Source: Chloroflexota bacterium (GTDB lineage: Bacteria; Chloroflexota; Dehalococcoidia; DSGV01). Taken from it: a stretch of 34,998 bases of DNA. The DNA lies in the NCBI GenBank assembly GCA_021787985.1, contig JAJYLG010000028.1, forward strand, positions 1 through 34,998, given 5' to 3'. Positions 6,336-8,856 of this stretch are shown one piece after another. Both the position numbers and the translations under genes were made by a program. A model generated the notes under the pieces. That model was given only the letters and a program-made list of their open reading frames with translations. It did no database searches and was not told where the DNA came from. Positions within the stretch are counted from its first letter, which is position 1. Each line of letters opens with the position of its first letter.

Positions 6336-6403
6336 CGTCCGGCTCCCAGCGCTCCGCAGCGGCCCGCCCGCGGCCGGCAAGAGTGTCGGACGGATCCGGG
6401 ATC

Positions 6404-6417
6404 TGAGACTTGAGACT
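6404..6417. repeat. Short tandem repeat TGAGACT x2
   Basis: Two perfect adjacent copies of TGAGACT followed by the near-copy TGAAAT. They lie in the spacer between the secreted-protein gene and the T-box promoter. No function is suggested. Confidence 0.6.
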
Positions 6418-6486
6418 TGAAATCGGAGGCGGACCGGACGCCAGAGCCGCCGTCCTGCCGAGGGCAAGAAACCAGCCCCCACGCGC

Positions 6487-6516
6487 TTGACAGCGGAAAG
6501 CGCTCGCGACTACCCT
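6487..6516 (+). promoter_or_regulatory. Sigma70-like promoter of the ilv-leu operon
   Basis: A consensus -35 (TTGACA, 6487-6492) is separated by 18 nt from a -10-like TACCCT (6511-6516). Transcription would start near 6523, just before stem I of the T-box, which is where a T-box transcript should begin. The perfect -35 hexamer is rare in this GC-rich window. Confidence 0.7.
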
Positions 6517-6522
6517 CCAAAC

Positions 6523-6760
6523 TGTACAGCCGTGAACGGGAGCAGTACGGGTCGGCCGGCCCCAGCGAGCTGGCGGCGGTGCAAGCCAGCGGCGAAGCCC
6601 GACCCCGAACTCGCCCGGGAGCTCGTCGCCTGAGCGGATCGCCAGGGCGGCGCGGGTACGCCCGTTACAGCGCAGAGTGCCCGCCGGCAGGTCCGGCGGG
6701 AACAAGGGTGGTACCGCGGGCATTCCGGCCCGTCCCTTCGGGGACGGGCCGTGTTGTTTG
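6523..6760 (+). ncRNA. T-box riboswitch, leucine (CUC) specifier
   Basis: The T-box core AAGGGTGGTACCGCG is at 6704-6718, with the UGGU that pairs with the uncharged tRNA acceptor end at 6709-6712. The antiterminator can be drawn exactly: AAGGG (6704-6708) with CCCTT (6734-6738), and GCGGG (6716-6720) with CCCGT (6729-6733). It competes with the terminator at 6727-6750. Stem I is recognisable by GGGAGCAGTACGG (6538-6550), the helix GGGTCGG/CCGACCC (6549-6555 / 6599-6605) and the distal hairpin GCTGG/CCAGC (6569-6573 / 6586-6590). The specifier loop reads CGAA-CTC-G, giving CUC (6610-6612), a Leu codon. Established role: uncharged tRNA-Leu stabilises the antiterminator, so the ilv-leu operon is read through under leucine starvation. 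The same specifier is known for the Bacillus subtilis ilv-leu T-box. Confidence 0.95.
6727..6760 (+). terminator. T-box terminator hairpin
   Basis: A perfect 10-bp stem, GGCCCGTCCC (6727-6736) with GGGACGGGCC (6741-6750), is closed by a UUCG tetraloop and followed by GTGTTGTTT. The 5' arm overlaps the 3' strand of the T-box antiterminator, so the two structures exclude each other. Confidence 0.9.
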
Positions 6761-6767
6761 GCGAAAC

Positions 6768-6836
6768 ATGAGCGGCGGCGCGGCGGTCCTCGTAGAGCTG
6801 ATCGTAGTGGGCCTGCTCCTTCGGGAGTCGGGATAG
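6768..6836 (+). CDS. Putative branched-chain-amino-acid leader peptide (22 aa)
   Basis: An ATG at 6768 opens a 22-codon frame ending in TAG at 6834-6836. Ten of the 22 residues are Val, Leu or Ile: VLV at 7-9, LIVV at 11-14 and LLL at 16-18. This is the composition of attenuator leader peptides for ilv operons. A hairpin terminator follows at 6870-6894. The sequence right after the stop (GCGCCC, 6837-6842) is complementary to the terminator 5' arm (GGGCGC, 6873-6878), the arrangement expected if ribosome position decides between terminator and antiterminator. Against it: no good Shine-Dalgarno is visible (GGCGAAAC before the ATG), and such a short frame could arise by chance. It would be transcribed only after T-box read-through. 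Confidence 0.5.
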   Translation: MSGGAAVLVELIVVGLLLRESG

Positions 6837-6869
6837 GCGCCCTGCTGCCAACGAACGGTTCGACGGACG

Positions 6870-6900
6870 GCGGGGCGCAGGGGAAGCGCCCCGCTCTGTT
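6870..6900 (+). terminator. Second attenuator terminator hairpin
   Basis: A perfect 9-bp stem, GCGGGGCGC (6870-6878) with GCGCCCCGC (6886-6894), has a 7-nt loop and is followed by TCTGTT. It lies 33 nt after the stop of the putative leader peptide and 243 nt before ilvB. A 14-bp perfect palindrome, GCTGGATATCCAGC, sits directly behind it (6901-6914). It is either a true second attenuator or a backup terminator for the T-box. Confidence 0.6.
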
Positions 6901-7057
6901 GCTGGATATCCAGCGTAAGGGCGAGAGGGGACAGGTGAAGGGCAGATTGAACGACGGACTCGCGGGCATCGGCGGCCGGCGCGATGGCGCGCGCAAGTCC
7001 ACCGCTGCGCCGGTCGCGCTTGTGCTACCTCGACGCATTTCGTACGGGAGAGGCTGG

Positions 7058-7096
7058 CCGCGGGTTGTCGCCCGCGGGGCGGTAGAGACCGTCCCC
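7058..7096 (+). promoter_or_regulatory. Two abutting hairpins ahead of ilvB
   Basis: CCGCGGG/CCCGCGG (7058-7064 / 7071-7077) and GGGGCGGT/ACCG(T)CCCC (7076-7083 / 7088-7096) share two bases, so they stack or compete. They end 47 nt before the ilvB start and may affect mRNA stability or ribosome access. The remainder of 6915-7143 holds no other clear signal. Confidence 0.4.
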
Positions 7097-7143
7097 CATC
7101 CGCCGGCGACGACCCGAAGTCAGACGAAAGGGACTCAGCACAC

Positions 7144-8856
7144 ATGACAGCGAAGCGAATGAACGGGGCGCAGATCCTGCTCGAGTGCCTGGCGCGCGAG
7201 GGCGTCGAGGTCATCTACGGCTACCCGGGCGGGGTCGTGCTGCCGCTGTACCACCGCTTTCCCGAGTATCCACAGCTCAAGCACGTGCTCGTCCGCCACG
7301 AGCAGGGCGCCGCACACGCAGCCGACGGCTACGCGCGGGCCTCGGGGCGGCTGGGCGTCTGCCTGGCGACCTCCGGGCCGGGCGCCACGAACCTGGTCAC
7401 CGGCATCGCCACCGCGTGGATGGACAGCGTGCCGTTGCTGGCCGTCACCGGCAACGTCGCCCGCAACCTGTTGGGCAAGGACGGTTTCCAGGAAGCGGAC
7501 ATCACCGGCATCACGATGCCGATCACCAAGCACAACTACCTGGTGATGGACGTCGATGACCTGGCCTACACCGTCCGCGAGGCGATCTATATCGCCACCA
7601 CCGGCCGGCGTGGACCGGTGCTCGTGGATATCCCCAAGGACGTCTTCATCGACGAGACGAGCTTTCAGTGGCCGGAGGAGGTGAGCGTCCGTGGCTACAA
7701 GCCCACCTACCACGGCCATGTCGGCCAGATGAGGAAGGCCGCCAAGCTCATCGACGAGGCGAGACGCCCCCTCATCCTGGCAGGCCACGGCGTCATCGCC
7801 AGCGGCGGGCACGACGCGCTGCGGGACTTCGCCGAGAAGGCCGGCATCCCGGTGCTCACCACGTTCCTGGGAATCGGCTCCTTCCCGGCCGACCACGTCC
7901 TCTCGTATGGCTGGATGGGCATGCACGGGGCCTATCACGCCAATCAGGCCGCCAACCACGCGGACCTCATCATCGCGATCGGCATGCGATTCGACGACCG
8001 CGCGATGGGCCGTTACTCAGACTTCAACCCGGGTTGCAAGATCGTCCACATCGACATCGACCCGGCGGAGATCGGCAAGAACCTGCCGGTCACGGTGCCG
8101 ATCGTGGGCGACGTCAAGGTCGTCCTCGCCGGCTTGATCGAAGAGGCGAAACCGAACAGCCACGTGGAGTGGCTGCACTGGATCGACAAGGTGCGGACGG
8201 AGCACCCCTCCTTCACCGTTCCGGAGACGGCGGGGCTGTCGGTGCAGTACGCGGTGCGTCAGATCTGGGAGGTCACGCAGGGCGAAGCCGTGGTTGTGAC
8301 GGGCGTGGGTCAGCACCAGATGTGGGTCGGTCAGCACTACCCGTTCCACAGGCCGCGCGCGCTGATCAGCAGCGGTGGTCTCGGGACCATGGGCTACGAG
8401 GTGCCCGCCGCGATCGGCGCGGCGATGGCCCGGCCGGGCGAGGTCGTCTGGTCGGTGTGCGGCGACGGTGGCTTCCAGATGACGGTGCAGGAGCTGGCCA
8501 CGGCGGTGGATCAGGACGTGAACGTCAAGTTCGCGGTCATGAACAACGGCTATCTGGGCATGGTCCGGCAGTGGCAGGAGCTCTTCTACCAGCACAACTA
8601 CGTCTCGGTGGACACGGCCCGCGAGCTGTGCCAGCCGGACTTCGTGAAGCTCGCCGAAGCCTATGGCATCCCGGCCAGGCGCGCCACCGCCCAGGCCGAG
8701 GCCCGCAAGGCGATCGAGTGGGCGCAGGCGACGCCGGGGCCCGTGCTGGTCGAGTTCGTGGTGGAACCCGAGGACAACGTCTGGCCCATGGTTCCCGCTG
8801 GCGCGTCGCTCGCCGAGACGATGGAGGAACCACGGCCGCAGGAGGTGCGCGCGTGA
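7144..8856 (+). CDS. ilvB: Acetolactate synthase large (catalytic) subunit
   Basis: 570 residues, normal family length. The ThDP- and FAD-dependent enzyme condenses two pyruvates to 2-acetolactate (Val/Leu) or pyruvate with 2-oxobutanoate to acetohydroxybutanoate (Ile). The N-terminal ThDP-binding half has GYPGGVVLPLYH and RHEQGAAHAADGYARA with catalytic E53. The central FAD-binding region spans about 190-340. The C-terminal half has the ThDP/Mg motif GDGGFQMTVQELATAV (from about 440) ending at NN. The ATG is preceded by AAAGGG at 11-nt spacing, slightly long. It is the first gene after the T-box leader and overlaps ilvN by 4 nt (GTGA). Confidence 0.97.
   Translation: MTAKRMNGAQILLECLAREGVEVIYGYPGGVVLPLYHRFPEYPQLKHVLVRHEQGAAHAADGYARASGRLGVCLATSGPGATNLVTGIATAWMDSVPLLAVTGNVARNLLGKDGFQEADITGITMPITKHNYLVMDVDDLAYTVREAIYIATTGRRGPVLVDIPKDVFIDETSFQWPEEVSVRGYKPTYHGHVGQMRKAAKLIDEARRPLILAGHGVIASGGHDALRDFAEKAGIPVLTTFLGIGSFPADHVLSYGWMGMHGAYHANQAANHADLIIAIGMRFDDRAMGRYSDFNPGCKIVHIDIDPAEIGKNLPVTVPIVGDVKVVLAGLIEEAKPNSHVEWLHWIDKVRTEHPSFTVPETAGLSVQYAVRQIWEVTQGEAVVVTGVGQHQMWVGQHYPFHRPRALISSGGLGTMGYEVPAAIGAAMARPGEVVWSVCGDGGFQMTVQELATAVDQDVNVKFAVMNNGYLGMVRQWQELFYQHNYVSVDTARELCQPDFVKLAEAYGIPARRATAQAEARKAIEWAQATPGPVLVEFVVEPEDNVWPMVPAGASLAETMEEPRPQEVRA

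Follow-up and report, generated by a model that had tools for sequence, protein, structure and literature searches.

The E. coli ilv-type attenuators are ribosome-mediated: a short open reading frame (ORF) with a run of Val, Leu and Ile (V/L/I) codons is followed by alternative hairpins. Leader peptides are also found ahead of ilvB in Actinobacteria, where their mechanism is unclear; the similar leader peptide of S. coelicolor ilvB is reported not to respond to control-codon mutations (PMC1262725). T-boxes and leader peptides occur as lineage alternatives at the same genes (PMC2965389), and for the S. aureus BCAA leader peptide the option of a T-box was weighed and discarded (PMC5794164). Tandem T-boxes and contiguous riboswitches are known 5' of ilvB (PMC12452182), and in Dehalococcoides ileS and trp genes are known to have T-boxes (PMC2494555). 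The two kinds of sensor meet in B. subtilis rtpA/yczA (anti-TRAP, at), which combines a Trp T-box with a Trp leader peptide (PMC11255114, which cites Chen and Yanofsky 2003, 2004): T-box antitermination is followed, in one leader, by a peptide on which the ribosome stalls when that same tRNA is uncharged, with Trp sensed at both steps and the second one controlling the initiation of translation.

Here we describe an ilvB leader in which a Leu T-box and a putative BCAA leader-peptide attenuator follow one another, an arrangement in series that we consider the likely best explanation of the sequence. It lies in a 34,998-nt stretch of DNA (the window; all features below are on its forward strand) from a 3.5-Mb Chloroflexota MAG, the sole representative of its order among the genomes compared; among named sequences, its IlvB best matches those of Dehalococcoidia, Thermoflexaceae and further Chloroflexi MAGs. 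Like leaders of the B. subtilis ilv-leu type, this one has a full-length Rfam match, a Leu specifier and an intrinsic terminator ahead of a BCAA operon, but a second tRNA-charging sensor would stand between T-box and ilvB. Tandem T-boxes likewise place two starvation sensors in series; there both are RNA aptamers, whereas here one would be a translating ribosome. The short V/L/I-run ORF and alternative hairpins are shared with the Actinobacteria ilvB and E. coli ilv-type leaders, which lack a T-box, and the Chloroflexota leaders differ from those attenuators in GTA-rich codons, a hairpin starting from the stop codon and the absence of any Rfam match apart from the T-box at the 14 loci scanned, peptide-only leaders included. 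The earlier note on this DNA knew of no T-box and peptide attenuator in one leader; rtpA (PMC11255114) supplies a precedent. The window departs from rtpA in its BCAA operon, Leu T-box, V/L/I peptide and probable second transcription stop, and 307 nt separate its leader stop from the ilvB start, whereas an rtpA-type peptide lies close to the structural-gene Shine-Dalgarno (SD) sequence and controls it. A T-box with a peptide attenuator on a BCAA operon was not found in the literature searched, whose coverage leaves out most subscription papers, and a BCAA operon with a T-box plus a probable second transcription attenuator is probably new.

The T-box (6523..6740; T-box sequence AAGGGTGGTACCGCG) matches RF00230 over model positions 1-219 of 219 (E 1.6e-19), its 93.8 bits exceeding the curated gathering score of 93, and is the only RNA found by Rfam in the window. 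Its specifier can be read in the sequence as GAA-CUC (Leu), which fits the regulated pathway, and its intrinsic terminator (6726..6751; 11 bp, UUCG loop, U-rich tail TGTTGTTTGG, dG -24.7) is the sole call in a terminator scan of 6340-7200. A full Leu T-box ending in a UUCG terminator, as the earlier note had it, is thus borne out: judged from sequence, architecture, specifier and terminator all mark a T-box leader of the transcriptional type, with binding of uncharged tRNA-Leu and antitermination predicted. On other contigs of the same genome (L002, L003, L004), three weaker T-boxes lie 5' of leuS and of genes for a PALP-family enzyme and a class I aminoacyl-tRNA synthetase.

The operon begins with ilvB (acetolactate synthase large subunit, 7144..8856; Pfam TPP_enzyme N/M/C) and by Pfam continues with ilvN (ALS_ss_C/ACT), ilvC (KARI), leuA (HMGL-like/LeuA_dimer) and leuC (Aconitase). 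A pattern scan places a probable leader promoter, TTGACA - 18 nt - TACCCT, at 6487..6516, a site that a strict consensus promoter scan did not call; the same kind of scan finds TTGACA 16-18 nt from TANNNT just 5' of the T-box at 15/15 loci with both T-box and peptide. We looked for a second promoter between the T-box and the ORF or ilvB, which would break the series; neither the window nor the other 14 loci have a TTGAC..TA...T site there. With a single promoter 5' of the T-box, the peptide stage would be reached only by transcripts that have passed the T-box.

The candidate leader-peptide ORF (6768..6836), recognised by its BCAA density, its codons and its relatives, encodes MSGGAAVLVELIVVGLLLRESG in 22 codons and ends with TAG at 6834-6836; its ATG lies 16 nt past the T-box terminator stem. 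The ten V/L/I residues that first drew attention to this frame all fall inside 12 consecutive codons, GTC CTC GTA GAG CTG ATC GTA GTG GGC CTG CTC CTT at 6786-6821, and 0/3000 dinucleotide shuffles of the post-T-box leader reach ten (maximum 7). The frame is open from TTG 6417 to TAG 6836, running through the T-box, so that its openness alone is no evidence and the BCAA run is. Taken as a protein, the 139-aa open frame 6417-6836 has no Pfam match and crosses the T-box, and we rejected it. The lack of an SD, which the earlier note had called its weak point, was confirmed for ATG 6768 in the window; relatives G050 and G179 have AGGAG ahead of the leader ATG, and in several peptide-only relatives (e.g. 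L195, L210-L212, L232) the ATG is ~9-12 nt past the -10 box.

Codon choice in the leaders also departs from that of the genes they precede. Counting the last 12 codons of each leader, Val is encoded by GTA in 30/47 cases versus 19/912 in the ilvB genes (p 5e-32), and Leu by CTT, CTA or TTA in 41/150 versus 28/752 (p 3e-17). The window ORF follows the same trend relative to the operon genes counted (GTA 2/4 versus 4/174; CTT 1/5 versus 1/133). A starvation sensor would be expected to rely on codons whose tRNAs are scarce.

Beyond the ORF, two RNA structures compete for the same bases. Stem A, antiterminator-like, pairs 6837-6849 with 6865-6878 (6837..6878; 13 bp, dG -29.7); its first base is directly 3' of TAG, and its 3' arm overlaps the 5' arm of hairpin B (6870..6894, GCGGGGCGC-AGGGGAA-GCGCCCCGC), a candidate second terminator whose perfect 9-bp stem (dG -22.6) has 6870-6878 in common with stem A. 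The complementarity previously seen between GCGCCC (6837-6842) and GGGCGC (6873-6878) proves to be part of this larger 13-bp stem, whose pair probabilities are >= 0.99 when the RNA past the stop is free. The second hairpin and its weak U-tract are also as originally described: the hairpin is strong, but its tail TCTGTTGCT is weak and, with 4 T in 8 (TCTGTTGC), falls just below the threshold of a U-tract terminator scan, so our claim is that the leader works like a ribosome-mediated attenuator, as a putative member of that class. Between hairpin B and ilvB, some 240 nt of GC-rich leader (6900-7143) fold strongly.

We modelled the switch by stepwise removal of 5' RNA, mimicking ribosome cover. 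The probability of hairpin B is 0.001 as long as the ribosome's 3' edge has not passed 6839, and it is 1.0 once the edge is at 6842 or beyond, so that in silico hairpin B forms only once the ribosome is at the stop codon. The ribosome footprint extends 15 nt; a ribosome terminating at 6834-6836 would cover the RNA to ~6846, and one halted while any of the control codons occupies its A site would cover it to ~6798-6831, positions at which the probability of B is mostly <0.2 (~0.3 at the first Val codon). Shuffling 6837-6900 gives as many switching pairs (those gained with the first 9 nt masked) in 45/1000 cases, and the fold energy of this segment lies at z = -3.2 relative to shuffles. Without any ribosome the window RNA likewise folds into A, and poor translation would therefore mean constitutive read-through. 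The stop-codon switch recurs in relative G024, built from a sequence unrelated to that of the window, the probability of its downstream hairpin being 0.00 at edges -15 to +3 past the stop and 0.95 at +15. In G055 the fold favours hairpin B wherever the ribosome stands; this leader lacks a bistable fold, and the two-state switch is thus not general. Across leaders, a stem beginning <=3 nt from the stop beats shuffles at p<0.05 in 16/32.

These features suggest two tRNA-charging sensors acting on one ilvBNC-leuAC transcript. Uncharged tRNA-Leu would read the CUC specifier and stabilise the T-box antiterminator, transcription otherwise stopping at 6726-6751; polymerases past the T-box would go on to make the leader-peptide attenuator. 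A ribosome on MSGGAAVLVELIVVGLLLRESG stalled at Val/Leu/Ile codons would leave 6837-6849 free for stem A, preventing hairpin B, whereas a ribosome reaching the stop codon would cover the 5' arm of A, allowing B to form and transcription to end at ~6895. We infer that the ORF is translated, that transcription terminates at B and that the two stages form an AND gate with a shared Leu signal and a steeper, multiplied response. The earlier note had the operon respond to tRNA-Leu charging and then to ribosome stalling at Val/Ile/Leu codons; if both stages terminate transcription, wiring in series predicts AND logic in place of independent answers to Val or Ile: a Leu shortage is necessary, and a shortage of Val or Ile alone should not open the operon. 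This raises the question of why one starvation should be sensed twice: the options are a multiplied fold-range, a Leu-only sensor widened to Val and Ile, or separate checks of tRNA charging and of translation capacity.

We surveyed ~140 ilvB leaders for the two sensors. A T-box, T-box terminator and Leu/Val-rich ORF behind a single promoter occur together at 14 firm loci and one weak one, with the GAACTC signature found by string search at 12 of these 15. The nearest IlvB relatives, G024 (74%) and G055 (70%), both have a Leu T-box, a terminator and then an ORF, ending in AILLPVRSLVLLPLPLI before the stop in G024 (L006) and in ALPLVALVVLLLGP in G055 (L007). The BCAA run of G055 (9/12) is above all 3000 shuffles, and that of G024 (8/12) is reached in 3/3000. 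A separate order, that of G050, has the combination in six f17 genomes, four f66 genomes and one f50 genome, with T-boxes identified by Rfam (those of f66 carry ACCGTCC), and in one weak case (f60 G168). ORFs of this order end in Leu runs (for example SSALLPLVLLALPL, GLLPLVLLGLAL and GLLLLGGLRM, each followed by the stop), vary in length with the frame kept, and conserve the motifs LEVTP and R.RVV. The nearest relatives and f17/f66/f50 share a hairpin that starts at the stop codon of the short ORF. On the IlvB tree the combination appears in two separate clades.

Other leaders carry one sensor or none. The ORF is present without a T-box in f66 G248 and f60 G099; in G248 the promoter (TTGACA..TAGACT) lies 9 nt 5' of the leader ATG, a placement from which the T-box seems cleanly absent between promoter and leader ORF. 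Family f2 and its allies have the peptide only, with an ORF ending LVLVLT, a hairpin A from the stop codon and then a hairpin B. A T-box without peptide is found in G035, f30, f4 and others, and the control T-box leader of G035 (L010) has no such BCAA-run ORF; f33 and most other leaders have neither sensor. Sensors usually seen as replacing each other thus share a leader in 14 genomes or more, from two clades, and their single-sensor relatives make the order of and reason for stacking open to study.

The earlier note had proposed conservation in relatives as a check, with a frame unconserved beside a retained T-box to count against its reading. The T-box, its terminator, a BCAA ORF and a hairpin at the stop do recur, while the frame is not conserved in the narrow sense: leader ORFs are 22, 33, 35 and 44-53 codons long across families, and the peptide sequence is not alignable between them. 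Position, BCAA content and codon bias are retained, and the comparison on the whole favours the earlier reading. Covariation, also suggested as a check, is seen as compensatory changes in both hairpins of the peptide-only f2 leaders: over 13 pairs, 97.9% of cells are paired, 5 pairs have changes on both sides, and the covariation score is reached by 0/500 shuffles. The synonymous-site comparison contributed little, dN/dS on leader ORFs being uninformative or nonsynonymous-rich, as expected of leader peptides; outside control codons and motifs no purifying selection on leader amino acids was seen, and 10/12 changed codons between the L238 and L239 ORFs are nonsynonymous. Classical A/B mutual exclusion was sought and not found in f2, f66 and G055; A and B do not overlap in f2 and f66 and so cannot be simple terminator/antiterminator alternatives there.

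Because related bacteria carry the same two-sensor arrangement, the sequences make it very unlikely that T-box and peptide are paired by accident, and the two-sensor leader is very probably real and of wider occurrence than the window. That the T-box alone functions here, the BCAA ORF and hairpins being chance or decayed remnants of a GC-rich leader, seems to us quite improbable. Such a reading would account for the missing SD, the weak U-tract, a frame that opens upstream through the T-box and cannot be aligned to relatives, and leaders with only a T-box do exist; it leaves unexplained the result of the 3000 shuffles, the preference for rare codons, the A/B switch at the stop codon and a like ORF that both nearest relatives and an independent order carry at this position. 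We give still less credence to the idea that the ORF is no leader peptide but codes for a small functional (membrane) protein, which is hard to believe when its amino acids are unconserved between families, with only BCAA content and position kept, always 5' of ilvB, when change between close relatives (L238/L239) is mostly nonsynonymous and when the rarest Val and Leu codons are preferred, even though it has a 12-residue hydrophobic stretch and LEVTP is conserved in the f17/f66 peptides.

A different second stage deserves more weight, though we hold it to be unlikely: T-box and peptide would act in series, but the peptide would work on translation or RNA stability, a stalled ribosome keeping the ilvB ribosome-binding site open. 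rtpA (PMC11255114) offers a precedent, the f17/f66 leader stop is only ~100-125 nt 5' of ilvB, and in f66 hairpin B lacks any U-tract. At 12/12 loci computed, the SD is predicted to be less accessible with the whole leader free than with a stalled ribosome on it, a difference that is partly trivial, as removing upstream RNA takes away pairing partners. Against this mode in the window stand the 307 nt between leader stop and ilvB start and a leader fold whose A/B switch closes with a terminator-like hairpin. An rtpA-like translational mode is possible in f17/f66. Returning to the T-box and peptide attenuator as two transcriptional stages, we put at about even the broader proposition that Dehalococcoidia-like Chloroflexota of at least two lineages combine a Leu T-box with a BCAA peptide attenuator, both transcriptional, as an AND gate, the single-sensor sister lineages recording its assembly or loss.

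Translational masking of the ilvB SD in f17/f66 was considered as a candidate and dropped, stalled and stop positions giving no clean separation. In f66 (L231, L232, L234, L236), the hairpin A 5' arm GGTYCTCGG complements the ilvB SD region CCGAGGAGG in several genomes, which hints at translational control. The non-BCAA motif LEVTP in leaders L231, L234, L238, L239, L243 and L240 (f17, f66) is encoded by GGAGGTNAC, an SD-like string within the ORF; R.RVV is the second motif common to these families.

The survey also yielded, as a by-product, BCAA leader peptides 5' of ilvB across this class of Chloroflexota that are absent from Rfam and of which we found no description in the literature searched. 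Those ending LVLVLT have the core CTCGTACTCGTACTTACCTAG, followed by the hairpin GGCGRCG..CGYCGCC and the hairpin CCCGCGTGYCGGG (L193, L195, L196, L199, L204, L206, L207, L210-L214, L014 and L015, and further L163, L168, L066, L067, L069 and L074); A and B do not overlap, and the members scanned have no Rfam family. In L006/L007, ~80-100 nt 5' of ilvB, an extra hairpin shows a compensatory change (CCGTCCCG..CGGGACGG versus CCGCCCCG..CGGGGCGG) and has GGTAGC 3' of it; a comparable GC hairpin and GGTAG occur near 7056-7085 in the window.
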